DNA of 64,000 nucleotides from Siphonodentalium dalli (lineage: Eukaryota > Mollusca > Scaphopoda > Gadilida > Siphonodentaliidae), in contig CP136066.1 in the NCBI GenBank assembly GCA_032622095.1, forward strand, positions 53,596,609-53,660,608. Reading direction: 5' to 3'. The notes below the pieces were generated by a model. That model was not told the origin of the DNA. It did not search any database and saw only the letters and a program-made list of their open reading frames with translations. Both the position numbers and the translations under genes were made by a program. Below are positions 649-29,250 of the stretch, piece after piece (the stretch's first letter is position 1; the number at the start of each line of letters is the position of its first letter).

Positions 649-3600
649 GTACGTACAGCTTTGGAAGTTGTGGGTTCATATCAGGGTTTCTGCTGCCACT
701 TGCCAAATTCACTAAATGAACAAACAATTCACATTTGGCAATAACAAATGTGGCAAGTGACGTCTCGGTTCCATAAGAAAGTAAAAATTATTTATCAAGG
801 AATTGGTCACTAAATCATCCATGTCACGGAAGTATGGGAGGCCGTTTTCACATTGATCAAATAATTGGACTTAAACGCAATACAATTACGTTTAAGTGCA
901 ATTCAATAACACTTAAGCACAATTGAATTGTGCTTAAGTGTAATTACTTACAGTAATGCCCTAATTAATTGACTTCTTAACCACAGCATAATTATGGGTA
1001 ACTTTTCAGGATTTAGTCGGAAATATGGCTTGTTGCCATTCATTGGAAAGCTCTCGCCAACAGCTTTCCGATGAATGGCAACACGCCATATTTCTGCCAT
1101 TATCACCAGAGTTACGACCCTTTGGAATTTGCACTCAATTTTCGTTTCCAGATGCTTAACTTTAGTAAGTCTGAACTGAATGGAATGAAATTTGGTATGT
1201 TGGTTTACTACCCCAAAATACATGTCAAGTTCAAATTTTGGTCCCGCCGCCAATTTTCACCAGAGTAATGGCCCTTTGTTGAAATTACCACAGGCATCTT
1301 TTGCCATCCCTAGCGATGCTCTTGTTAAATTTTGTTGTTTGTATGTAATGACTATATTGTCACTGATTTCACATTATATTGCAGGGAGGTGCTTTGGTTC
1401 ATGTATACAAAGATGGATCAGTGATGCTGACTATAAGTAGTGTGGAGATGGGACAAGGTCTCTATGTTAAAATGATGCAAGTACGTATACAACATGGTCT
1501 CTATGTTAAAATGATGCAAGTACGTATACAACATGGTCTCTATGTTAAAATGATGCAAGTACGTATACAGCAGGGTCTCTATGTTAATGATGCAAGTATG
1601 TAATCAGCAGGGTCTCTATATTAAAATGATGCAAGTACATATACAGCAGGGTCTCTAGGTTAAAATGATGCAATCACGTATACAACAGGGTCCCTATGTT
1701 AAAATGATGCAAGTACATATACAACAGGGTCCCTATGTTAAAATGATGCTAGTATGTATACAGCAGGGTCTCTAGGTTAAAATGATGCAATCACGTATAC
1801 AACAGGGTCCCTATGTTAAAATGATGCAAGTACATATACAACAGGGTCCCTATGTTAAAATGATTCTAGTACGTATACAACAGGGTCCCTATGTTAATAT
1901 GATGCAAGCACGTATACAACAGGGTCCCTATATTAAAATGATGCTAGTACGTATACAACAGGGTCCCTATGTTAAAATGATGCATGCACATATACAACGG
2001 TTCGTATACAACATAGACTCTATGTTAAAATTATACAGATGTGTATACAACAGGGTCTCTGTCCTAAAGTGATGCTGGCGTGAATACAACATGTTAAAAT
2101 TATGCAAGTGCGTCTGTTAAAGTGACATATAATTTTCCAACCTCAAATTAAGCCTTGTAATATCACGCGTTAACATGACGGGAGCTGCACTGGTGCAGCA
2201 TTAAAGACCATGTACCAGTGCATTCTCTTATATATGCGAGTCTCCCACAGGGAGCCTCGCATATATAAGAGAATGCAATGGCTTACAAGGTTAAGGTAAA
2301 TATTGTTAGGCCAATGCATTCTCTTACATATTCGAGGTACCCTATGGAGACTTGCTTATATGCCAGTAAGAGAATGCATTGACACAGGGTTTTCACAAAA
2401 TTTCAGGAAATCTCCACTCATGGAAGGGTTGATTTGTCACATTCTGGTTATCAAAATAAGTCAATAGAAATAGGATCAAACATTCATGGATGCTAATGTG
2501 TCTATATTCAAAGAAAGAAATATGTGACCCGCCATATGAAATCCAGTCGTAAGTCGGGATTTTTTTACCCTGTGCCAATGCATTCTCTTATATATGCGAG
2601 TCGACCATAGGTCGCCTCGTATATATAAGAGAATGCATTGGCCTAACAATTTTTTACAATTTTAATAATTTTTTCTTGTATTCTTTAACAATTTTATAAT
2701 TTCACCCATACAGAGCCCCAGACAAACATGAGCAGACGACACTCTTCTATATGCTTCTATATATGTGTGGGGCTCCCTGCAGGGTAATGGATGTTTTTTA
2801 TTTTATGTCCTAAAAATTATAAGAAACATTTATTTAAAAAAAATGATAAAAAATTGTTAGGCCAATGCATTCTCTTATATATGCGAGGCGACCTATGGTC
2901 GACTCGTATATATAAGAGAATGCTTTGGCACAGTGTAAAAAAATTCCGACTTACGACTGGATTTGATATGGCGCCACATATTGGGGTGTACTGGATGGAC
3001 TTTGTCTCTTTCTCCGTCTGTCCGTCCTGGCACATATCACAGCCATGGGTTATTGGAACTGAATTAAATTTGGGATGGATATATTCACAGTCAGGATGGT
3101 TTTCAAAATTAGCCCCAGCTAGTGGCATTCACTTTTTCTATTCGAGAATTATCCGTTATTTAGCTGGAAAGGATCAGGGCTCGATTTAACTGGATTCACA
3201 TCGAAATTTGCTATGCTTTTTCCAATTTTTGCTAACCAATTTACAATGAAAAAACATGTACTGGTGGGGGATGCTATTTAAAATCTACCCAGTGCTGCAA
3301 AATGCTATACAACTGTTATGGCCTTTTTCTCATTTTTCATTCTAGATGTATCCTTCTTTGATTTAAATCTGGAAATAATAGTTTTTGTCTGTCTTATATA
3401 TCTCATCCATGGGTTATGCGATCTCAATGATGTAGAGATGTTCACCACAAAGACTTTCATTAAAGTGTCCTGCCCATTTTTACATTTTTCGATCAATAGG
3501 TTTAGGATTAGGGTTAGGGCTTAGGGTTGTGCACCTGCAATGGGAATTTTATTATTTTAACTTAATGTTTACTGTCATGTGAAACATCTTAGTGTTTTAA

Positions 3601-7604: not shown

Positions 7605-10600
7605 CAATATATGAAATTGTTTTTTATTATAAAAGATTTTATCTGACAATTCTTTATTCATTGACGAAATCAATCCGGGCCAAATATACCCGAAAAAATC
7701 CTACCGCAAGCAATACTGCGGCAACTCTTTGATGTCGCGGATTATTCACACCTCCTGCACTGTCCCTGAAAAGAGTAGGCGCCGCTCTGCATTGGGGTGC
7801 AGACCACGCTATTAACACGGCAATAACACGACTTCAACACGGATGACCACGGCGTGCAATCAGATGACCACGTCATGTACACGCCGTGTTCAGACCGTTT
7901 TTGAACACGCTGGCCATTTTGCCATAATTGATCACGCTAAGAACACGACTTTAACACGGATGACCGCGGCGTGAACTCGGGTGACCACGGCATGTACACG
8001 CCGTGTTCAAACCGTTTTTGAACACGCTGGCCATTTTTCTGAAGTTGACCACGCTAAGACCACGCGCGATTTTTCCGTGTTTTTTCCGTGTTAAAATGTT
8101 GGCCACGCGTGGTTTTGAACAAAACCACGGGCCTTGTACTGTAGGATAAATCTGTCCTAATTTGGAAAAACATTCCAAGAAAGCCACCGAGGGCACAAAC
8201 CCGGTCCGCCAACGTGGTTGAATTTAGGGAAACCAACGAACTGTCTCGATGAATACACGGAATGAAATGTTCTCCATCGGGAATGTTCCTTTCGCAATCA
8301 GATCGAAAAAAGTTTTCATGTCTTTCCAGTATCCAGTTCCTTTTAAGGCGGCTGTTGCTTGAACTGGTATTGAATAACTTCCTTTTTCAAAGAGCACTCG
8401 CCTTGATCCGGCGATTATAGATCTCTTTCTTAAAGGGCGCCCACGACAGTTGCTTGCTGAGCACACCTGACTGTGACCCCGGTGTTACTGGCCCAGCCAC
8501 ATCTGGATCCGCATCTCCACTGTCGTGTCCGTTCCCGCTGTCGAGTTTTTCAATCTTTATTTGTTTCCTCTTCTCCCATTGATTACCGCGCTTTCTTTTT
8601 CTGAAAAGAGAAAAATAAAGAAAAAATTAGATATGCATAAAATAAACCCCTAGATTTATCCATATGGACATGCAGTCATACAAAATATCAATATATTTGT
8701 ACACGTATCCACAACATACGTCCAATCACCACGCAACGATCCACCAAAAATAATCCAGCCAACCATTGACTCGCCATTCACTCACGGATTCATCAGCACA
8801 GCCATCTCCAACTCATGCTCCCATCACTCCAGCTCAGAAATATATCATATCCATGCATTCAACAATCAATATATTTGTCACCAGTCCATGCATCAATATA
8901 TATATATATACTCATTCATCTTTAGTTAAGACATCCAACTCATCAAATAATGACACACAGAGATCCCTGCATGCATGCATACGGTAACGTCTTAAAATCG
9001 ACGAAGAACTCAACACATAGGCAGATATGCATGCCCCAATATCAATTACTTTCTAAATTTTGGGAACAAGTCCATCCCATATATGCAACATTTGCTGGGA
9101 TAATTAGAAACATCCCATTGAACTAGAACGTCTTGAGAAATCGTATACACTACCATGAAACAAAAACAATATACACAACCTTCCATATTTCATGATAGAC
9201 GTATTTGCAAATGTTGAACATTTGTTTGAATCCAATTGACACGGAACTAACTCAGTGCCAATACCGAATAAAGGGAAATTTATATTCTTGTCGACAAAAT
9301 TTTTACTTTATGTTCCACCAATGTTGAGTATCGCCGTACTTAAAATATCGAACTTTCATATCTTAGACCCAGACATGTACCATTCTAGATCGATTGTGTC
9401 CAAATTTGATGAGGGGGACACATTCCTGGTAGCTTAAACCGAATCTAAAACGTCCCCCGACATATACCCGATATAACTTACCATATAAATACAATTTGGC
9501 ACTGATAGCCCTCGTTGGCATGCACTGGTAGTTCGCCGTACCATTTTCAGTGATCATCGCCCCTCGTATCGATTTATTTTCGTGTATTTCCAACTGATAC
9601 ACGCCAGTGATTTCGATGTGCACGTATAGCCGATAGATTCTGCTGTCGGAATTTTATAAAAGATTCCGCAAGTTATACTCAGGAATTAAACAAAACGCAC
9701 TAGAATACCGATTAGGGCAAAATTTTACCTCCCCCCTACGAGTTTATACACCCTATTTTTCTGCTTTAAACAAAGGCCAGATCGCCCAGAGTCGAACTGA
9801 ACATCATCAGGTGACTCCTCCACTGGGTAAATGCAAAATTAATCGTATATATCTTTCCATGTCTTTTCTGTCGTTATATAGACGTCCGGTTCTAATTATT
9901 TTACCATAACATGGCTTTAAAAACACTGGTATTCTCCTGTACAACACTGGTATTCCGACGTTCACACTGGTATTCCGCGAGCCGATTGGACAGTGTGATT
10001 ATGTTATTTTCAGGTAGCCAGCCGGATTTTGCGTATCCCAATCTCTAAAATAACGATGGGAATTCACAGCACAGATAAGGTACCCAATGATATCCAAACA
10101 GCGGCCAGTACATCAGCTGAACTCAGTGGTCTTGCTGTTATGGTGAGTCGAAAAGATATTAGACATTTATATATTTATATGTACAGTAATGCCCTAATTA
10201 ATCGACTCCATAACCAAGGCAGAATTATGGGTAACTTTTCAGGATTTAGTCAGAAATATGGCTTGTTGCCATTCATCGGAAAGCTCTCGGCGAGTCGATT
10301 AATTAGGGCATTACTGTATACTAGCAGCCCTCATAATTAGCTATGGCAATCAGCAATGCCGAAGCCATTTGCTGAAGCAAACTGAGCCATGGCAAAGGAT
10401 TGCGGTAGAGGATTGGCGAAGCCAAACAATTTGAATTAAGAGGACTGGAACAGGCTCCCTTTGGGAGTTTTTATTCAACGTCAGAGGAGCCTGCAGCCAC
10501 TCCCATTGGATCCTTTATTCAATTTTGATCGTTTATAAACATTTTTTTTTTTTTTTTTTAGTTTGAACTTAATTGAAAACAAAATGTTTTTTTGTGTTAA

Positions 10601-13600
10601 ATAAATCTTTTTTTCATCAAATTTTTTAAAATCTTATGTCAATATGACATCCATTGGGGACCTGTCGCCACATCAAACATGGTTGAAATCAGTCCAGGGA
10701 TCTGGGAGAAAATCACGAACAGACAGATAGACAGACAGACAGATCCTACTCTTATATATACAGAATAAATGCCCCAGCATAAAGATCTTTTGGACCATTA
10801 GTCCTTGCCAAAATATTTACCGGGGTAGCAGTATCTAAGTGTAAGCTGCGCTAATTCATTTTAGAAATAATTTTGAGATGCCACATTGTTGACTGGCATC
10901 TCAGAATACAGCAGGTTGCTATAATTAATAAAGCGAAACAATCTAGTTCCATCTCACCATTATTAACAACACGTTTATTGAATTAATTTTATCGGGCTAA
11001 CAACTAAATTTCATAAATACATGTAGATCTCAAAGTATAAACTCAAAATCGTCTATCAATATAAGATTCTCCTTATATTCCGATTGCATTGCAAGAGAAA
11101 AATAAGACTGAGTCCTGCACATCGAGATAAAAAGGTGTTTAGGCATGCAGCGGACAGCGGGCTAGCATAACTAAATTCACCCTCTGGGACCTCATTCTGA
11201 TGGCCACATCTTCTTTTCAGTTTCTCTGTATCCCCAAATTGTCTCATGACACAATGCATAGGTGCCCAATGGGTGTGCATCACCATCTTCTCAATTTGGG
11301 AACTTAAATCTTAGTCTAGTTCTCCCTTAACAGATGAGGCCATGCAGAATGAGGCCCAATGATGCTAGCCCAATGTGCATGGTAGTTTCACTAAGTTCAC
11401 CCTCTGGGGACCTCATTGTGAATATGTTCAGGCATGGGCATGAGATACCATCCATATTGTTCAGTAATTGGACAAATTAAAGGGAAAAATTAAATATAAA
11501 CATAAAAATATTTTTGAGCCAATTTGAGGTGAGCTGTCATCCCTGTACAGCGGCAATATTTATCTATTGTCAGTTAACAACAGCATACTATGGCTCTACA
11601 AACAAGCTATTTTGATTGGTCAGAAATCTGCGAAATAAATCATATGTTTCCTGCTGGATTCGCTAACATAACTTAACATTGTAAACAATTTGTTTTACTA
11701 AATACTCATTGATGATTAGTTCCCTTAGGAAATGTTCAGATAATATGTTCAAAAACAGCCATTGGGTGTGTTTTACTAAATACTCATTGACGATTAGTTC
11801 CTTAGGAAATGTTCAGATAATATGTTCAAAAACAGCCATTGGGTGTGTTTTACTAAATACTCATTGACGATTAGTTCCCTTAGGAAATGTTCAGATAATA
11901 TGTTCAAAAACAGCCATTGGGTGTGTTTTACTAAATACTCATTGACGATTAGTTCCCTTAGGAAATGTTCAGATAATATGTTCAAAAACAGCCATTGGGT
12001 GTGTTTTACTAAATACTCATTGACGATTAGTTCCCTTAGGAAATGTTCAGATAATATGTTCAAAAACAGCCATTGGGTGTTTGTTGAACTTATTATCTGA
12101 ACATTTAGGAGATCCTTCTATGTTTGTATTATATGTTTGTCTGTCATCTGCTTATATTTCATGAACATCGCTCCAGATGAATAATAGACCATTCCAATGT
12201 ATACTCTTATAACTGAAGGAGGGGTCCACTCAGTAAATAAAGGGAAAATATGTCTAATGACTGCTGCAACTATGGCAGAATATATGGAATTCCCAGAAAT
12301 TGCACTGAATTTTACATCTATAATTTTATATTTGTTATGAGTATTATAATATTTCTTTTGACAGGATGCTTGCAAGAAATTAATGAAGAGATTGGAACCT
12401 GTCATCGCTGAAAACATGAAGGGGTCATGGGAAGAGTGGGTGTGTATTCTTATAAAAAGATTTGGGAGTCGCATAAATTGTTCTTGTCGCCGTTTCACAC
12501 CAATGTCATAGAATCATAACTCACCCTGAGGGAATAAGATTATTGTTGCACCCCTCAGCGATATAAAAACCATAGTGTCACAGCTAATTATAATAATATA
12601 ATTTAGTATAGTAAATGAATAAAAGTGAGATTAATTTCAATCAATGTTCCTAGGTGTGTCCCATATGCAGTAGTTGTGTGAGGGTTTCAGTTTGAAGTTC
12701 ATCGGAAAGCTCTCCCCAAGAGCTTTCCGATGAATGGCAACAAGCCATATTTCGGACTAAATCCTGAAAAGTTACCCATAATTCTGCTGTGGTTAAGGAG
12801 TTGATTATTTAGGGAATTACTGTAGTTCAGTATTCAGGCTCTCTTTAAGGAAAAATTAATTATACTTATAAAAATAATATTTTCTGGTTCAACTCAGCTA
12901 TTATTAGTCAGTCAATAGAGAATTATCCATTCTGTTCTTCAAATATGCTTTTCATTGTAATTAAAAACATCAACATCATTTCTAGGGATCTAAGGGAATG
13001 ATATAGAGGTATCATTTCTTAAAAGGGTACTGAACACTAAATCCGGCCATTTATGGGGCCATCTTCATTTATACTTTTATACTCAACAGAATATATGCAA
13101 TAAATGAATGAATTTGAGCCATGGATTAGCACAAAATACACACATGGTAATTATAATGAAAATAAATTTATGACTGAAGTCATAAATTCATTTTCATTAT
13201 AATTACCATGCTGTTTACATCATTCATAGATCACACAGGTGTATTTTTCACAGATCCATGGCTCAAATTCATTCATTTGTTACATATATTCTGTTCAGTA
13301 TAAAACCAGATGGTCCCATAAATGGCCGGATTTAGGGTACAGTCCCCCTTTAAGCAACATTCTTCATAGTTTCCTAAACTGAGTCTGCTCAATCGAGGTT
13401 CTTGTACGAGAATTATCTGATTATTACTTGTTTGGCAAAATCCATAAAACAATTTTACAATGATTTTGTCTCATTTTAGGTGAAGACTGCTTTCCTGGAT
13501 AGAATTTGTTTGTCTGCAACAGGATATGGCAGGTAATATGCATTACTAGTATTTCATTAAAAGATATGTTACCATCTGAGCTAGATTCATAAATAAAGCC

Positions 13601-16600
13601 CAGCAATTGATCATTTTAGATATCCAGGCCTAGAATATGATGTGGAGACTGGGAAAGGTCAAGGTTTTCCGCACTATATATATGGAGCTGCGTGTTCGGT
13701 GGTGGAGATCGACTGTCTCACTGGTGATCATATGGTTAGTATTAACCTGAACCTTTGTTCAGTTTTAAAAGTATACATCGTAATGTCCTAAGTAATCGAC
13801 TCCTTAACCACAGCAGAATTATGGGTAATTTTTCAGGGTTAATCGTAAATATGCCTTGTTTCCATTCATCGGAAAGCTCTCACTGAGAGCTTTCTGATGA
13901 ATGGCAACAAGCCATATTTCCAACTAAATCCTGAAAAATTACCCGTAATTCTGCTGTGGTTAAGGAGTCATTTATTTAGGGCATTACTGTATACATTGGA
14001 ATTGCCTGTTCTTATTTGCTGACTTCATGATTTGTGGATAATAGCCAGATTTAGACACGCGTATGTGTAACTGGTAACATGTATTACATGTCTGACTCGC
14101 TATCGACTGGACCACGGATCTCCAATATTGTTAGGCCAATGTATTCTTTTATATATGTGAGGCTCTCTATGGGAGACACGCATATATAATAGAATGCATT
14201 GGCTCAGGGTTTTTGCAAAATTTCAGGAAGCTTCAGTCATGAAAGGGTTAAACAATGAAATTAAATAATAGAGGTTAAATCTTTTTAGGTTCTGAGATCA
14301 GATATTGTCATGGACCTCGGCAAGAGTTTGAATCCAGCTATAGATGTTGGACAGATAGAAGGAGCCTTCGTTCAGGTAAGACCAAAATAAAAATTGCAGA
14401 ATCTAGCTATCCTGGTGCTAGCAGCAAAATAAAGTGACAACATATATAGCCTCAGGAGTGCTTATGGCAAGTATACTGCAAATCATTATACGATTCAACC
14501 GTGGTTTCTGCTGGGGTTAAAATTTAGGGTCCATATAACCATGGTTAGGGCCATCCAAGCAGGCAAATAGCATGTCTGTCGTTTGCAGAATAAGGTCCCC
14601 AGAGGGTGAATTTAGTGACGCTATCCCACAAAGTGGGCTAGCATCACCAAATTTGCCCTCTGGGAACCTCGATCATTCTGCTTAGACCCTCAACTGCTAT
14701 GGTAGATTGAAGTTCCCCAGTTGAAGTTGGTGATATTCACCAATTGGGCACCTCGATTATGCATTTCATCGTCTGCAAATTAGGGGATATAGAAACTTTC
14801 CAGAAGGGAAAACATAACTAAAAACAATGTTAATTTGATACCATAGATACTTCCCAGAAGATGAGGCCTAAGCAGAATGAGGTCTCCCGAGGGTGAATTT
14901 GGTGATGCTAGCCCGCTGTGATGCTTCACCCTCTGGGGACCTCATTCTGCAAATGACAGACATGCTATTTGCAGGCTTGGGCCCATCATATCCAAAGTAT
15001 TCTTGCACCAGAGAACAGTGCTGGGTGGTTGTATTGGTCTCTAAAAATACCTCTGTAACCCCGACCCCTGATATTTTTTGCACGTATCGTTTTTCACATT
15101 TTAGGCAATGGCTTTTTGAATTTGTTTCGAACGAAAATTTAAATAGTCAATGCTAAAACAAATATATATACTTTTGAGTGGTTCCGACAGGTTCAACATT
15201 GAGTGGTTCCAACCAGTTCTGATTGAATTGCTGCTTGCTAGAAGTTTTGCCAACAGACAGGTTATTGAATATACACAGATGCCCGCTTTCCTTTGATATG
15301 TTGCATTTTGTGGCATTCATGGTGATCAGAAATCAAATAAAATGGACCTGCACAATTTACACTTGTTTATATAGATTCATGCCTCCTGTCTTATTTTTCT
15401 TTTCCGGCAGACATAGGTTTTGTAGCAGACTAGCTTAGCTGGTTATATTTTGCCGCAGAATAGCCCTTACTAAAAAAATATTGTGTTCTCAGACTAGTGA
15501 TGAGCCGATTATCAAAAAAGCCTTGCGCCGATTGCTGATTATTTGAGATCACAATCAGCCGATTCCGATGTCGATTCTGATTATTGTAATAATTATACCA
15601 GAATATGTTATATGTGTTATATAACACTTAGATTTTGAAGCACCAACTGCAGTAATATACCAGAGTACTAGAGTTATTTTTCTTAGATCCCTACATGTAC
15701 ATATATAATACATAGAGTACACACAAATGGTCTTGGTGGTTGTCGATGTATTATATCCAGTAAAAGATTAATTACAGATAGAAAATCAATTTCTTTTTAT
15801 TATCTGACTATTAAAGCTAGAACAGTTTTTATGACTGCATCCTGACAACTAATGCAAATTATGCTCTATTTAATATGACAAATAGTGCAGTCAACTGCGT
15901 AATTAAGTGTAATTGACATGTACTTTCGGTTTCTGCCTCTATATTGTTGTATATATAGATATAGCTTTGTTGTACTGCTGCTGCGTATGTATACATTTTG
16001 ATAGCCTGACATACAAAAACCAAAATGTCTACGTGTAATCAAACTCTAAAGTTACCTATCAGCATACATGAGATATCCTTTGTGTACATCACCATGCTAA
16101 TGAAATCAATTGACTGAAATGACTGTTCCGTTAATTTATCAAATATCAAGATATGCACAATCATGTTAACGTGGGGTCATCCTCGCTCGAACACAAAGTG
16201 TCGTGTGCTTCAACGGCGATCCCTGCTGTAACATAGAACCGGAGTAATGGTATTCTGAAGAGGACATGGCTGTATATAAAGTTTATATTTACATACTAAG
16301 TGTGATTATCACTAAATCCAGCATTCTGATTGGTCGGCGCCCACGTGGCTAGTTGCAATTATTTCTCGGTTAATGCGCAACAGCTCATAACTGCAAGCTC
16401 ATAACAACATCGATACGTCATTTGGGTTTGGAAAGACGAACGCATAATGTTTTGGGAGCATTTGGATTCGCGCAGGATTGACTTAATAAATCATCGGGTT
16501 TCAATTGTTCCTGTTAACTTTTGCCAAGGGTGCTATGGGATATTTTTGGCTGGTTTTGTCACGATACACTTTTCGATTTAAATACATTTACAAAAGTGGC

Positions 16601-25600: not shown

Positions 25601-28600
25601 ACTATCAATGTGGAATCCGTTTTTGGTGAGATGTTTCCATATTCACTGAGGGTTTGCGTGTCAATGTGCGTTGACTGGAAAATTATTCATTTGGCGGCCA
25701 TCTTTGACGCCATCTTGGATCCTGAATTTTCCCATGCGCTGATTTTTGCGGATTTTGGATATGTTGTTCCTGAAGCTTTTCCGCGTCGAATGACACCAAA
25801 ATCAGCTTGTATCCAATTTCTTCCGGGTTGACCCCCAAATTCAGCTTCAGCGACCATACTAGTATATATGGGAGACGCGCATATATACTAGAATGCATTG
25901 GCACATGGTTTCGCAATATGTCAGGAAGCTCCAGTCATGTTAGGGTTAACTTGCTATTGAATCAATTTTGTTAAAACCAATTTAAATATATATAAATATT
26001 GTATTGCTACAATGCCGGGTCACTTCAAGTGCTACCTGGGTATAATATGATGAGTCTATTGTAAGGGATGCCGGAGAAGGGGGCACGCGGGGGCACTGTC
26101 CCCTTGCCCTGACCCAGGGGAGTCCAATGGGTACCTGAAAACACAGGTACCCAGAAAAAAAAATTGACCCCACCCCAATAGTACTTAATCCTTTAGGATT
26201 AAGTACTATTGGGGGGTGGGGTCAATATTAGTTCTGGGGACCTGCGCCTGAAAAGTGCCCTCCTCGTGAGTTTCCCCCCCCCACCTTGCCCCTTGATGCT
26301 TCCGGCGTCCCTGTCTATTGTTATCCCTAAACTTGCATGCATATATGATCTCACCTAGGCTAAATGTGAAGAGTACTCAAGAAGGAGTGATAAAAATGTA
26401 TTTTCATATTAACCAGAGAACAAAACTCAATCTCCTTTTTACTCACATATAAATTGATATGGACCAAAATTTTTCATAAAATAATAGGCAAGTATTCTGG
26501 CTCTGTGAATAGTAGATTACACATTTATTACAGGGTTACGGTTACATGGTACTAGAAGATGTCAAGGTTACACCAGATGGCCTCGTCATAACGCAGGGGC
26601 CTGGAAATTACAAGATCCCGTCAGCACGAAACATCCCCGTTGAATTTAATGTCACTCTCCTACAATACAATGAGAATGATACAGCTGTTTATTCATCAAA
26701 GGTATGTCGTGTCTTAACCCTTTCGTGACGGCCCAGACCTGTGCTGGTGCAGCATTAAATTTCTTGTGCCAGTATATTCTCTTAATCTCTTATTTATGAG
26801 AATGCACTGGCTTACAAGCTAGGTCAAGGTAAATATTGTAGAAGTAGAGTGGGTGGTTTGGGGTGGTAGCCCCGGGATTGTCGGAAGCACCGAATGGTAA
26901 CTCCCCTTAACCCCTAAATATTGTTAGCTAATGTATTCTCTTATATACGCGAGGTGTAGCCGAGTCCCAGGGCGTTTTTACCCTGTCCTTGGGTTTCTTT
27001 CTTTAGCTTCATGTTGTGTATTCTTTCGGGTTACTATATATCAAAGACAACTATCTCTAGTTAAATTGTTTCTATACTTTAATTTGCGACGACGTATCCT
27101 ATAGAAGTAGAAACATGGTGAGGATGTATGATGACGACTGACTGGAATAGTTCGATAACACACATACTGGATCCAGAATTCTGGTCCAGTATTTATAGGG
27201 AATGGTCAATTTTGTTTGCAATAGCAAGTGACATATGTTTAAACTGGGCCTGTCAGAATACATAACTCATATGTCACATTTGTGGTTTTTAATGGATTTT
27301 AAAAATACATTTTACCTGATTAGCCAAATGGTTTGCACACCTAAAATAATTTGGTGTCATTGTTGTCATCACATCCTGAACGTACCTATGCAATGTTATG
27401 ATACTAAGTATCAATATGTAATAAATGGTTTATGTAAATTATTGCGCAGGTACGTTCAGGAATCCACCTCACCATCCCTTGTGACCAACATTCCCAAGAG
27501 AGGACATCAGTACCAAGTACGTTCATGTGTCCTTACCCTGTTCTAGTTTGTAGTACACACTGTACTTTACAATACACTGACTATCGAAGTTAGATACTCT
27601 CTAGGTTTTAGTGACCTTTAATAATTTGGAAGATACTAGAACAGAGTCCACGGAAACATCGTTCTGTTACACGAGGCTCTCTATGTCTATTTGACTATGT
27701 GTTGTGAGGAAGTTTATGCTTCTTAAAATTGTTAATAAATGGTGGAATATGTCCATTTCTATTGGGGGGTTAACCCTTTACCCAACAAACCGGCCAAAAC
27801 CGGCCAAATAAAGCTGCAACAGCCTAAATTATCTTGGGTCTGTCTCAATAAAACCATACAAATATGGATATCATTGGAACCAGCTCATTGACCACATTGT
27901 GATGGTTACAGTTATGCCCTGTGCCAATGCATTCTCTTATATATGCGAGTCGACCATAGGTCGCCTCGCATATATAAGAGAATGCATTGGCCTAAAAAAA
28001 AACTTTTTTTAACACTTTTTACCATTATTTCTTACATTCTTTAACATTTTTATAATTTTTAATGTGTTAAGCCAATGCATTCTCTTATATATGCGAGGCG
28101 ACCTATGGTCGACTCGCATATATAAGAGAATGCATTGGCACAGGGCCGTTCTGTTGGGTAAAGGGTTATACCATAAGACAGATCCATCTTATAGTTTATT
28201 ATGATTTTGTACTTTCGATTTCGCACAAATCCGGCCGTATCCGGTGGAATTCTGAGTATTTTAACTTAGTTTAAATGAAGTGTCTGCTTCTTTCTCTTTA
28301 ATAAATGGTGGTGGTGTCTCAACACAGGTGGAATTTTTGTTTTGAACCAAAAATTAGGTGGTCGCGGTCACGTTAAACAGGTGATCGCCCGTTGAAGGTG
28401 ATATATAGAATAAACCAGGTCATCCCTCCGGCAAAAATCTCCCAGATGGCCATATTCAAAACTTAACAAGTCTGGTGTTGTCACATGATTTCATGCTGTT
28501 GGTGAGCCACTACTGATCTTGTGAACTCTTGTGAATGATGCTAATTGATGTTTTATTGTCATGTTTTTTAGGCTGTTGGTGAGCCACCCCTGAATCTTGC

Positions 28601-29250
28601 GAACTCTGTGTTCTTTGCGATCAAAGATGCCGTTACTGCTGCGAGGGCTCAGTCAGGAATTACCGGCATTTTCCAATTCGATGCTCCAGCTACACCTGAC
28701 AGAATTCGTATGTCGTGTGTCGACAGGTTCACTGGACAGGTAAAATCACCAATAATCTACCAAAGGCACGGCAGGGATGTGTGACAGATTAGAGCAGGGA
28801 CCAGTCTATTATTATTTTCTCATTTAGAGTTATTCTTCTTTTTTTATATAGGCCGAGATATCTGTAAAAAGTATTTATTTTGTCTGCTCTTGAGTATCTC
28901 AGCCATGGGTTATTGGATGTCCATGAAATTTGGTATGAAAGTTTCTGTTATAAAAATAGACTAAAACTGTCCAAAATATAATTATACCAGACATAGATAG
29001 AAGCATTTCCGGACAGGTTTCTTTGATTCATATTTATTATTTTATTCCCCAGAATCTATATAAAACTTGTTAGAAGAGACACTATCTTTAAGTGCTAATG
29101 ATCTCATTTTCACTTTTATCAAAGCTTTATAATTTTAAATTGTCTCATTTCTGCCCATGAGTCATTCTGCCAGCACTTTTCATTTTATTTCCATTTCAGG
29201 TTCCTCATCCAGAAGAAGGAACATATCGTCCGTGGGTCGTTAAGCTATAG
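561..29250 (+). CDS. XDH: Xanthine dehydrogenase, 3' part of gene (10 exons)
   Basis: Xanthine dehydrogenase/oxidase oxidises hypoxanthine to xanthine and urate in purine breakdown, and is a cytosolic molybdo-flavoenzyme. Joining exons 561-648, 1385-1480, 10014-10142, 12365-12439, 13480-13532, 13620-13734, 14289-14375, 26534-26701, 28572-28739 and 29200-29250 gives one uninterrupted reading frame. It is collinear with the C-terminal molybdopterin-binding domain of animal XDH, from the RWKKRG motif to the C-terminus. All borders are AG/GT and phases agree. Landmarks are [49 protein letters not shown] and AVGEPP. VGEPP carries the catalytic glutamate of the family (Glu1261 in bovine XDH) and favours XDH over aldehyde oxidase, which has GES there. 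The N-terminal Fe-S and FAD domains and promoter lie upstream of the window. Introns of 8.5 and 12.2 kb are filled with TEs. Confidence 0.93.
840..950. repeat. Palindromic cluster of CACTTAAG/AATTG units
   Basis: Repeated ACTTAAGCACAATTG-type words occur in both orientations and can fold on themselves. They lie directly before a TA-type MITE. A similar palindromic TTAAGTGCAAAT cluster is at 60055-60155. Confidence 0.5.
951..1099. mobile_element. Mariner-type palindromic MITE, truncated copy
   Basis: It starts TA|CAGTAATGCCC and carries the arm CTCCTTAACCACAGCAGAAT in variant form, the TTTCAGGATTTAGTCGGAAA core and part of the mirrored arm. It breaks off near 1099. Full copies of the family are at 10184 and 13776. 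TA flanks point to a Tc1/mariner-mobilised family (inference). Confidence 0.7.
1385..1480 (+). CDS. XDH: XDH exon b (GGALVHVY...EMGQG)
   Basis: Acceptor ttgcag ends at 1384. The exon has 32 codons in phase 0, from [12 protein letters not shown] to GLYVKMMQ, and contains the molybdopterin-contacting EMGQG motif. The first donor gtacgt is at 1481. This end is chosen because the next exon starts with VASR, exactly as in other XDHs (KM.Q/VASR). Immediate in-frame copies of the exon end and donor follow, so donors at 1520 and 1559 are also usable on paper. Confidence 0.92.
1457..2131 (+). repeat. 39-bp minisatellite made of exon end plus splice donor
   Basis: There are about 16 tandem units of 39 bp; unit 4 is 37 bp and the last ones are degenerate. 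The first unit is the last 24 bp of XDH exon b plus its intron donor, so each unit contains the GLYVKMMQ codons followed by GTACGT or a derivative. Perfect gtacgt remains at 1481, 1520, 1559, 1869 and 1947. As 39 is divisible by 3, units 1-3 are in frame; the 2-bp-short unit 4 breaks the frame. Confidence 0.95.
2174..2428. mobile_element. TTAA-type MITE with two internal hairpins
   Basis: It is flanked by TTAA at 2170-2173 and a degraded TTGA at 2429. The left arm has GACGGGAGCTGCACTGGTGC and the right arm CAGGAA.TC.CC.CTCATG. Inside are two copies of the hairpin whose arm is CATTCTCTTATATATGCGAG. Relatives are at 14130, 17139/25945, 26718 and 32859. Confidence 0.7.
2524..2977. mobile_element. 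GTGACCCGCCATAT MITE with 4-bp TSD (copy 1)
   Basis: The 454-bp element starts GTGACCCGCCATAT and ends with the mirrored ATATGGCG.CAC. It is flanked by ATAT on both sides (2520-2523 and 2978-2981). Two copies of the CATTCTCTTATATATGCGAG hairpin (about 2575-2642 and 2864-2933) lie just inside the ends in opposite orientation. A second copy is at 29519. Confidence 0.8.
2982..3732. other. XDH intron, degenerate repeat-like sequence
   Basis: No gene is supported. It contains AAATTTGGTATG-type satellite debris and three TTAGGG-like words near 3505-3530, too few to be telomeric. ATTAT at 3728-3732 is the left target duplication of the next element. Confidence 0.5.
4640..5030. repeat. GACCACG/GAACACG motif array, copy 1
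   Basis: Irregularly spaced words of the form GACCACGG, GAACACGG and GATCACG, on either strand, with few mismatches in the CACG core. The same array recurs at about 5598-5750, 6540-6720 and 7790-8125. The 4860-5200 block is duplicated at about 5600-5930. Confidence 0.75.
6213..7870. repeat. Internal duplication in the 3733-9997 element
   Basis: The block 6213-6720 (GTGCATAATATGTC... to the CACG array) is repeated at about 7336-7870 with small changes. The second copy carries a (TA)n tract at about 7550-7602 that the first lacks. Between them (6721-7335) I see no coding signal. Confidence 0.8.
8236..8603 (-). pseudogene. Broken exon-like coding segment, unknown family
   Basis: On the minus strand a good acceptor (tctcttttcag) is followed by an open frame. 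It encodes [12 protein letters not shown], an acidic linker ([11 protein letters not shown]), a Pro/Gly stretch, then [21 protein letters not shown] one-base shift near 8395 moves the frame into [25 protein letters not shown] and [13 protein letters not shown], ending at a stop. The amphipathic, protein-like composition across the shift suggests a decayed gene exon carried by the element. I do not recognise the family. Confidence 0.4.
8640..9320. other. Inner part of long-TIR element, no gene seen
   Basis: AT-rich sequence with CATCCA/CATGCA-rich stretches and a short (TA)n tract near 8895. No coding feature is supported. Confidence 0.4.
10014..10142 (+). CDS. XDH: XDH exon c (VASR...TAASTSAEL)
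   Basis: There are 43 codons in phase 0, from [12 protein letters not shown] to LSGLAVM, with donor gtgagt at 10143. It contains TAASTSAEL, the family's TAASVSAD-type molybdopterin loop. The 3' splice site is squeezed: a 6.3-kb transposon ends at 9997, so only 16 bp of original intron precede the exon. Confidence 0.93.
10184..10316. mobile_element. Mariner-type MITE, one arm shortened
   Basis: It starts TA|CAGTAATGCCCTAATTAAT and ends with the mirrored ATTAGGGCATTACTG|TA. It has the same arm as 13776-13989, with most of the second arm deleted after the AAGCTCTCGG centre. It begins 41 bp after the donor of XDH exon c. Confidence 0.8.
10317..11690. other. XDH intron with MITE fragments and simple repeats
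   Basis: It contains a poly-T tract near 10540-10560, a short (AGAC)n run near 10718-10742, and diverged pieces of the AGAGGGTGAATTT palindromic MITE between about 11080 and 11420. No coding signal. Confidence 0.5.
11691..12079. repeat. 78-bp tandem array, five units
   Basis: Units start TGTTTTACTAAATACTCATT at 11691, 11769, 11846, 11924 and 12002 (spacing 77-78 bp) and are nearly identical. The array ends in TTGTTGAACTTATTATCTGA (12080-12100), the inverted form of the unit's GTTCAGATAATATGTTCAA. A related palindrome lies at 48557-48615. The long open frames through the array on both strands are repeat artefacts. Confidence 0.95.
12365..12439 (+). CDS. XDH: XDH exon d ([12 protein letters not shown])
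   Basis: There are 25 codons in phase 0, from [12 protein letters not shown] to GSWEEW. The acceptor is ttgacag and the donor is gtgtgt at 12440. It matches the helical ACQ..LKRLEP...GSWE.W segment of XDH. Confidence 0.9.
12698..12822. mobile_element. Mariner-type MITE, 3' half
   Basis: It has the AAGCTCTC centre and one full arm ending GGAATTACTG|TA. The other arm is missing. Same family as 13776-13989. Confidence 0.75.
13023..13349. mobile_element. Palindromic TTAA MITE (GGGTACTGAACAC family)
   Basis: The arms mirror each other over about 325 bp (AAATCCGGCCATTTATGGG against CCCATAAATGGCCGGATTT). TTAA flanks at 13019-13022 and 13350-13353 suggest piggyBac- or Kolobok-type mobilisation (inference). 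Confidence 0.75.
13480..13532 (+). CDS. XDH: XDH exon e ([16 protein letters not shown])
   Basis: The acceptor is cattttag and the donor is gtaata at 13533. It encodes [17 protein letters not shown] plus two bases of the next Arg codon, so phase 2 is completed by the next exon. Confidence 0.9.
13620..13734 (+). CDS. XDH: XDH exon f ([16 protein letters not shown])
   Basis: The acceptor is cattttag. The first base completes the split Arg codon, followed by 38 codons ending LTGDHM and donor gttagt. The motif [17 protein letters not shown] is highly characteristic of XDH. Confidence 0.93.
13776..13989. mobile_element. Mariner-type MITE, complete palindrome
   Basis: Two full arms (TTAACCACAGCAGAATTATG and mirror) surround an AAGCTCTC..GAGAGCTTT centre, flanked by TA. 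This is the reference copy for fragments at 951, 10184, 12698, 32081 and 48071. Confidence 0.85.
14130..14247. mobile_element. TTAA-type hairpin MITE, right half
   Basis: The AATATTGTTAGGCCAATG start is followed by one CATTCTCTTATATATG-type hairpin, then CAGGAAGCTTCAGTCATGAA, ending GGG|TTAA at 14248. Same family as 2174-2428 and 32859-33078. Confidence 0.7.
14289..14375 (+). CDS. XDH: XDH exon g ([16 protein letters not shown])
   Basis: There are 29 codons in phase 0, from [11 protein letters not shown] to GQIEGAFVQ. The acceptor is tttttag and the donor is gtaaga at 14376. It includes the conserved Gln of GQ.EGAFVQ near the molybdenum centre. The next intron is 12,158 bp long and contains the nested transposons. 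Confidence 0.94.
14548..14986. mobile_element. Palindromic MITE, AGAGGGTGAATTT family
   Basis: The arms carry GCAAATAGCATGTCTGTC and AGAATGAGGTCCCCAGAGGG with mirrored copies. The short inner hairpin is around TGCTAGCCC. Diverged copies are at about 11080-11420 and 31478-31770, with a scrap near 32610. No clear target duplication was resolved. Confidence 0.65.
14987..15486. other. XDH intron, nothing recognised
   Basis: No exon, repeat or RNA gene is supported. Short overlapping open frames lack protein-like features. Confidence 0.4.
15495..16915. mobile_element. Non-autonomous hAT transposon
   Basis: It is 1421 bp with ends TAGTGATGAGCCGAT and mirror GGCTCATCACTA. The perfect 8-bp duplication TCTCAGAC is at 15487-15494 and 16916-16923, diagnostic of hAT. 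AATCAGCCGAT-type subterminal words occur at both ends. There is no transposase frame. An internal hairpin of about 40-bp arms (GGATTAACTGTCATGTGGAC) lies at about 16625-16725. Confidence 0.9.
17139..17290. mobile_element. TTAA MITE, left part, split by Academ-like element
   Basis: It begins TTAA|TGACAGGAACTGTGCTGGTGC and contains one full hairpin (about 17164-17245) and the start of a second (ATGCATTCTCTTA), where the 17291 element enters. It continues at 25862-25945 on the far side. Confidence 0.8.
18417..21595 (-). mobile_element. hAT transposon nested in Academ-like gene
   Basis: The 3179-bp element has ends CAGTCCTTCGAATTT and mirror AAAATCGAAGGACTG. TGAACTC flanks both sides (18410-18416, 21596-21602). 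Seven bases match exactly and the eighth differs, consistent with a worn 8-bp hAT duplication. Removing the element and one flank copy restores the Academ-like frame across the site (..[12 protein letters not shown]..). GC-rich GCGCGC words lie near both ends. It carries a BED-finger transposase. Confidence 0.93.
18706..21184 (-). CDS. hAT transposase with BED finger, one frameshift
   Basis: The transposase cuts and pastes its own element in the nucleus. The main frame is 785 codons (21184 to 18827). A BED-type zinc finger is formed by C62, C65, H104 and H108. The RNase H-like core follows with [22 protein letters not shown] and [17 protein letters not shown] hAT dimerisation region [25 protein letters not shown] precedes the end. 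Just after RRLSYD the frame slips: the family-like continuation [14 protein letters not shown]...[10 protein letters not shown] is in the next frame and runs to 18706, with a basic then Ser/Asp-rich tail. So one indel near 19000 (or a sequencing error) separates core and C-terminus. Met at 21139 (MSDSDD) is an alternative start. Confidence 0.85.
25862..25945. mobile_element. TTAA MITE, right part after Academ-like insertion
   Basis: The remainder of the MITE begun at 17139: the hairpin's second half (GGGAGACGCGCATATATA), CAGGAAGCTCCAGTCATG, and GGG|TTAA at 25946-25949. Confidence 0.8.
26063..26312. mobile_element. Palindromic MITE with 9-bp TSD (Mutator-like)
   Basis: GTCTATTGT occurs exactly at 26054-26062 and 26313-26321. 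The ends are AAGGGATGCCGGA and mirror TCCGGCGTCCCT. The centre is a near-perfect palindrome around 26163-26226 (ACCCCACCCCAATAGTAC arms). A 9-bp duplication is typical of Mutator-like elements. A fragment of the arm recurs near 60321-60360. Confidence 0.8.
26534..26701 (+). CDS. XDH: XDH exon h (GYGYMVLED...VYSSK)
   Basis: There are 56 codons in phase 0, from [12 protein letters not shown] to AVYSSK, containing [16 protein letters not shown]. The acceptor is attacag and the donor is gtatgt at 26702. A TTAA MITE starts only 16 bases after the exon. Confidence 0.94.
26718..26980. mobile_element. TTAA-type hairpin MITE, degraded
   Basis: The TTAA at 26714-26717 is followed by CCCTTTCGTGACGG and GTGCTGGTGCAGCATTAAA, a worn hairpin (about 26768-26813) and half of a second one (26930-26955). 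An unrelated stretch sits between them and the right end is not resolved. The left end is 12 bases past the donor's first base at 26702. Confidence 0.6.
26981..27769. other. XDH intron, no feature recognised
   Basis: A local inverted pair TGAACGTACCT / AGGTACGTTC lies near 27377-27460. Otherwise no repeat family or exon is supported. Confidence 0.4.
27774..28165. mobile_element. CCCTTTACCCAACA MITE with two hairpins
   Basis: Ends CCCTTTACCCAACA and mirror TGTTGGGTAAAGGG are flanked by TTAA (27770-27773) and TTAT (28166-28169). Two perfect-looking CATTCTCTTATATATGCGAG hairpins (about 27919-27992 and 28071-28140) lie in opposite orientation, as in the GTGACCC family, but the ends differ. Confidence 0.75.
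28495..28533 (+). pseudogene. Decayed tandem copy of XDH exon i start
   Basis: This segment matches the first ~39 bp of exon i (GCTGTTGGTGAGCCAC...) 77 bp downstream with a few changes, and the preceding TTGTCA.. intron bases also match. The AG of the acceptor has become AT and a stop interrupts the frame. It reads as a duplicated 3' splice site that is no longer usable. Confidence 0.75.
28572..28739 (+). CDS. XDH: XDH exon i (AVGEPP catalytic Glu exon)
   Basis: There are 56 codons in phase 0, from [20 protein letters not shown] to VDRFTGQ. The acceptor is tttttag and the donor is gtaaaa at 28740. The catalytic glutamate is residue 4 of the exon. An imperfect copy of the exon start lies 77 bp upstream. 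Confidence 0.95.
29200..29250 (+). CDS. XDH: XDH terminal exon and stop
   Basis: The acceptor is atttcag. The exon encodes [16 protein letters not shown] and a TAG stop at 29248-29250. It matches the short C-terminal PW.V.. tail of XDH proteins. It is short, so the call rests on collinearity with the preceding exons. Confidence 0.88.
   Translation, partial: VPHPEEGTYRPWVVKL

Follow-up and report, generated by a model that had tools for sequence, protein, structure and literature searches.

What happens when the end of an exon, together with its splice donor, is copied many times over? In the window, a 64,000-nucleotide stretch of the genome of the scaphopod Siphonodentalium dalli, such copies form a tandem array at an exon of an XDH-like gene, and those nearest the exon keep both the reading frame and the donor. 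We consider it likely that exon end and donor were amplified together in an ancestral gene, that the first unit is a fixed master copy and that some transcripts use an extra donor to make a longer isoform.

The exon in question (1385–1480, 96 nt, on the forward strand like all exons given here) belongs, judged by homology, to the XDH family, and is nearer to XDH than to aldehyde oxidase. Its peptide, joined to that of the next exon (in the version of a sister gene described below), matches rat XDH 3an1 at 1017–1090 with an E value of 3e-22; for the best aldehyde oxidase the value is poorer, at 5.7e-15. The preceding exon lies at 561–648 (start inferred from TTTCAG, donor CAG/GTACGT). The next one, at 10014–10142, provides the acceptor side of the array intron (VASRILRIP...SGLAVM; end inferred from the following GTGAGT). 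Homology places a later exon at 14289–14375 and the last two exon matches found at 26531–26701 and 28572–28733 (with AVGEPP). A mammalian XDH stretch, used as the query, gave the later exons in order at 10011–10160, 12368, 13480, 14292, 26525 and 28572. The TAG inside the match at 14289–14375 is the acceptor AG, and we reject it as an in-frame stop. Further matches on the same strand, to the preceding domain of XDH, begin before the window at C6:53569959, and these we take to be earlier exons of the gene.

HGG..EMGQG..HTK, FRGFGG and GEPP are conserved molybdenum-pocket motifs of XDH. The array gene retains EMGQG and AVGEPP; it reads ISS for HGG, YVK for HTK and FRAYGQ (FRAFGQ in the sister) for FRGFGG. 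HGG and HTK are present in three other XDH copies of the genome, and FRGFGG in the single one of the three that was examined for it. The changes in pocket motifs (window 1433–1441 and 1463–1468; L020, L023) occur in both array-bearing genes, which are under purifying selection. The array gene is an XDH-like paralogue, and both genes may have changed their substrate.

An array of this extent is not chance. TRF reports a period of 39 bp with 14.1 copies and 88% matches at 1453–1998, plus a degenerate tail, and a wrap-around parse divides 1457 to about 2116 into 17 units, of which the final three are degenerate. The parse is close to the earlier note, which had placed about 16 copies of 39 bp at 1457–2131. 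The note had also described the unit as the last 24 bp of the exon plus a GTACGT donor, which is what we see in both sister genes. Unit 1 (1457–1495) consists of the final 24 bp of exon 1385–1480 followed by GTACGTATACAACAT, and its 39 bp correspond to 13 codons. It holds the authentic exon end and donor, CAA/GTACGT, with the GT at 1481. Units 2 and 3 (1496–1573) are in frame and carry donors identical to that of unit 1 (GT at 1520 and 1559), which makes them candidates for isoforms longer by 13 and 26 residues. In units 4–14 (1574–2000) the donors read GTATGT, GTACAT, TCACGT, GCACGT and so on. The frame, open from 1385, is closed by a stop at 1601 that follows a 2-bp deletion in unit 4, and in units 6 and 9 a TAG appears when they are read in unit 1's register. 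GTACGT is retained at 1869 and 1947, preceded there by CTA (CTA/GTACGT). The perfect donors of units 2 and 3, and the decay and stops beyond them with these two survivors, are thus all present as the note had claimed. The degenerate tail, units 15–17, spans 2001–2116 according to the parse and a comparison with a fragment on C7.

Whether the query was 1380–1600 or the array tail, genome searches returned the same three places among the best-scored candidates, namely the window locus, a sister locus and the one C7 fragment. We reject an origin of the array as a dispersed repeat or transposon, since the searches gave just these three places; they score the best candidates only, and more decayed pieces could be missed. 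The C7 fragment (C7:172885070–172885238; L008 3069–3239) is a 171-bp solo copy of the degenerate tail. It is about 93% identical to window 1983–2144, one of its units is more complete than the counterpart there, and among the matches listed no XDH exon lies beside it. The gene holds other repeats as well. Another array, in one of the later introns (11691–12080), has five copies of 78 bp with 99% matches (TRF); in the sister gene there is a repeat with a 208-bp period, partly of sequence related to the 78-bp array. Also scattered about the window, at 2215–2281, 2574–2642, 2861–2929, 27917–28142 and elsewhere, is a hairpin element (CCAGTGCATTCTCTTATATATGCGAG with its complement), which occurs in introns of the sister gene too. 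It is probably a miniature inverted-repeat transposon.

Which of the units is the original one can be read from the three other XDH copies (L009, L010 and L011; near C6:165.9–166.2 Mb). They end the exon at the same codon, KMIQ/GTATGG, as the earlier note's choice of unit 1 for the real exon end would have it, and the 594, 709 and 480 bases examined after their donors contain neither a match to the unit nor a tandem repeat. Each has a single donor, CAG/GTATGG, and the difference between its CAG and the CAA of the sister genes is synonymous. Because the array-free copies share the exon end, the original donor must be that of unit 1, with the array a derived feature. Judged from these copies, it originated on the branch of the two sister genes.

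The second full locus lies 218 kb downstream and matches 219 of 221 query bases at 96% identity. Its array occupies the same exon, comprises 18–19 units, a number different from that of the window array, and has perfect donors in units 2, 4 and 5; in unit 4 the exonic 24 bp are copied with one base changed. Here the frame that begins with the exon runs on without a stop for 185 residues, across 12 units. A comparison of the two genes in eight coding segments (290 codons) gives a dS of 0.148 and a dN of 0.017 (ratio 0.11). Adding the preceding exon, which is less conserved (74 of 88 bases), gives nine segments with a dS of 0.172, a dN of 0.025 and a ratio of 0.15, all for exons within the window. 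Such low ratios indicate constraint on both genes. On this comparison the array-bearing genes look like constrained tandem duplicates. We reject gene decay, as the compared exons are open and constrained in both.

Within each array, to judge from the similarity of the units, evolution is concerted. Outside the degenerate tail 27 units are not identical to the master, and the nearest neighbour lies in the same array for 23 of them and in the other array for one (window unit 4), with three ties. Blocks of several units have been duplicated. Sister units 1–3 and 4–6 show one difference in 117 bp, a three-unit block that includes the exon end, and window units 6–7 and 9–10 are an identical two-unit block. 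At the exon side the sister genes share their first 80 intronic bases (1481–1560) without a difference. In the intron just upstream of the array exon 20 of 241 aligned bases differ, and in a stretch further up (381–560) 25 of 178; even at the lower rate the chance of 80 consecutive matches is about 0.001. The simplest reading is that the exon-proximal units are recent copies of unit 1, which would itself be kept constant by its roles in coding and splicing. Selection on units 2 and 3, or conversion between the genes, would lead us to expect the 80-bp identity equally.

Under the reading that we favor, 24 bp of exon end and 15 bp of intron would have been duplicated in tandem in the ancestor of the two XDH-like genes and then amplified. 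Away from the exon, the two arrays have turned over separately with multi-unit duplications, and the units next to it have stayed copies of unit 1. We infer that constraint on coding and splicing turns unit 1 into a fixed master copy, so that every fresh duplication at the exon side would restore an intact donor in frame, and the older units further out would decay. U1 would then bind units 1–3 in the window gene, or units 1, 2, 4 and 5 in the sister, and some transcripts would gain 13 or 26 residues. In most transcripts splicing would take place at one of the first donors, and the remaining array would be removed as intron.

How often might the extra donors be used? Since units 2 and 3 repeat the true donor exactly, along with 24 bp of its exonic context, it is plausible that they are used occasionally. 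An extra donor would add 13 residues to the segment after the EMGQG cofactor loop, where enzyme activity would probably be harmed or altered. Probable damage from an insert beside the molybdenum centre argues against frequent use. A simple duplex model of U1 pairing makes the master donor weak, at -3.3 kcal/mol, compared with -9.3 for the donor of the previous exon and -9.1 for that of one array-free XDH copy. The strongest unit donor of the sister array is that of unit 16 (CAA/GTGAGT, L007 2067; -7.6 kcal/mol), which lies behind an in-frame stop and, if used, would yield a truncated product. Taken from the sequence, the position of the insert, the weak master donor and the place of the strongest sister donor all argue against our favored reading. 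A retrocopy that records a junction was looked for in the genome and is rejected, as the spliced query matched exon by exon only and no processed copy appeared.

The most serious rival, possible in our view though somewhat doubtful, is an ordinary intronic minisatellite that overlaps the exon end by chance. The first donor alone would be used, and all copies would be inert. Distal units of the window array do show stops, a frameshift and the loss of GTs (9 of 13 scored units retain the GT, as do 10 of 16 in the sister array). The exon and first units fold unremarkably (z 0.66 and -0.20), which likewise suits inert copies and leads us to reject RNA structure that masks donors. However, the donors of units 2 and 3, and of units 2, 4 and 5 in the sister, are identical to the first and come with the copied 24 bp, so that the spliceosome should hardly be able to discriminate between them locally. 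Human IFI6 also offers a precedent, a minisatellite with units that are reported to serve as donors (PMC4526556).

A bolder version of our own reading is rather unlikely. It holds that the exon end is a permanent master that keeps reseeding working in-frame donors, so that turnover of the array would continually generate enzyme isoforms in steps of 13 residues next to the molybdenum centre, in parallel in both sisters.

It is also conceivable, but improbable, that surplus donors are harmful, that selection favors units with dead donors and that homogenisation spreads these units. To examine donor decay we scored 29 units (2–14 in the window; 2–16 and 18 in the sister), and 23 remained after removal of three identical to the master and three duplicates. 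Among these, the share of cells that deviate from the master is 22.7% for the donor columns (-3 to +6), 5.6% for the exon-like part and 7.1% for the intron tail (+7 to +14), a mean that excludes the last tail column, in which 22 of 23 units differ. In decayed units, changes are about four times as frequent at donor bases as elsewhere. Parsimony assigns 22 of 51 changes to the donor, which makes up 9 of 39 columns (p 0.0014). The count is 15 of 44 once the two CpG columns are removed (p 0.019), and a looser test that draws nine columns at random has a p of 0.045. This enrichment is what purging would produce, but the direction of the changes is not. In simulations of the distinct unit donors no excess weakening relative to random changes was found: with CpG weights of 1, 3 and 6, the share at or below the observed mean is 0.56, 0.35 and 0.21, and GT is lost in 7 of 15 distinct donors compared with 7.0, 5.7 and 4.8 in the simulations. 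Moreover, single multi-base events seem to account for several of the changes, the unit tree is weak and a local mutation hot spot fits the clustering equally well. The donors nearest the exon, which should be the most harmful, are intact. Because these donors are intact and the changes weaken donors no more than random ones would, we do not claim purging.

Less probable still is that the copies are beneficial, with several weak donors raising splicing efficiency or providing regulated isoforms. In favor of such a benefit, both sisters keep the same weak master donor (CAA, where the three other copies have CAG) with perfect copies nearby, and their first 80 intronic bases are the same. Yet homogenisation accounts for this identity without any benefit, the array-free XDH copies have just one donor there, and the insert would sit beside the cofactor. 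A related suggestion of the earlier note, that the array serves as a splice-buffering sink, is unsupported: the master donor is weak, yet nothing shows that the copies compensate. That the array is an assembly artefact is hardly credible, for although tandem repeats misassemble easily and the exact copy number comes from one assembly, the arrays of the two loci, 218 kb from each other, consist of different units that have diverged, and another contig holds a piece.

Human IFI6 (6-16) has a minisatellite of 12-bp units, an array that begins at the donor of exon 2. It is the closest precedent for the XDH-like array. Two downstream units are reported to act as additional donors, and three mRNA species result (PMC4526556). 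In both genes repeat units follow the donor of a coding exon; in IFI6 the use of the donors is reported, whereas here they are candidates from sequence. By homology, our array likewise starts at an authentic coding-exon donor and has downstream units with intact in-frame donors. In contrast to IFI6, its 39-bp unit includes 24 bp of coding exon, such that the exon end is copied along with every extra donor, and the array is common to two paralogues, each homogenised separately. Other systems are more distant. In DOK7 intron 4, as far as the available text describes it, neighboring donors compete for U1 and context decides (PMC5585400), but these are two donors of different sequence rather than identical copies in a repeat array. 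The VNTR in CTNS intron 7, an ordinary intronic minisatellite, has a tandem unit of a few tens of bases that varies in number, and the available part of the report mentions neither an origin from an exon end nor a splice donor within the unit (PMC5628181). In the partly available open-licence literature on minisatellite donors, junction duplications, competing donors and XDH repeats, no clear case besides IFI6 was found.

The XDH-like arrays provide a natural test bed for the splicing machinery's choice among identical donors placed at steps of 39 nt in nearly identical exonic context, and the two sister genes have different numbers of intact donor copies. A further lesson of the array is how selection that acts on a coding exon can anchor one end of a minisatellite.
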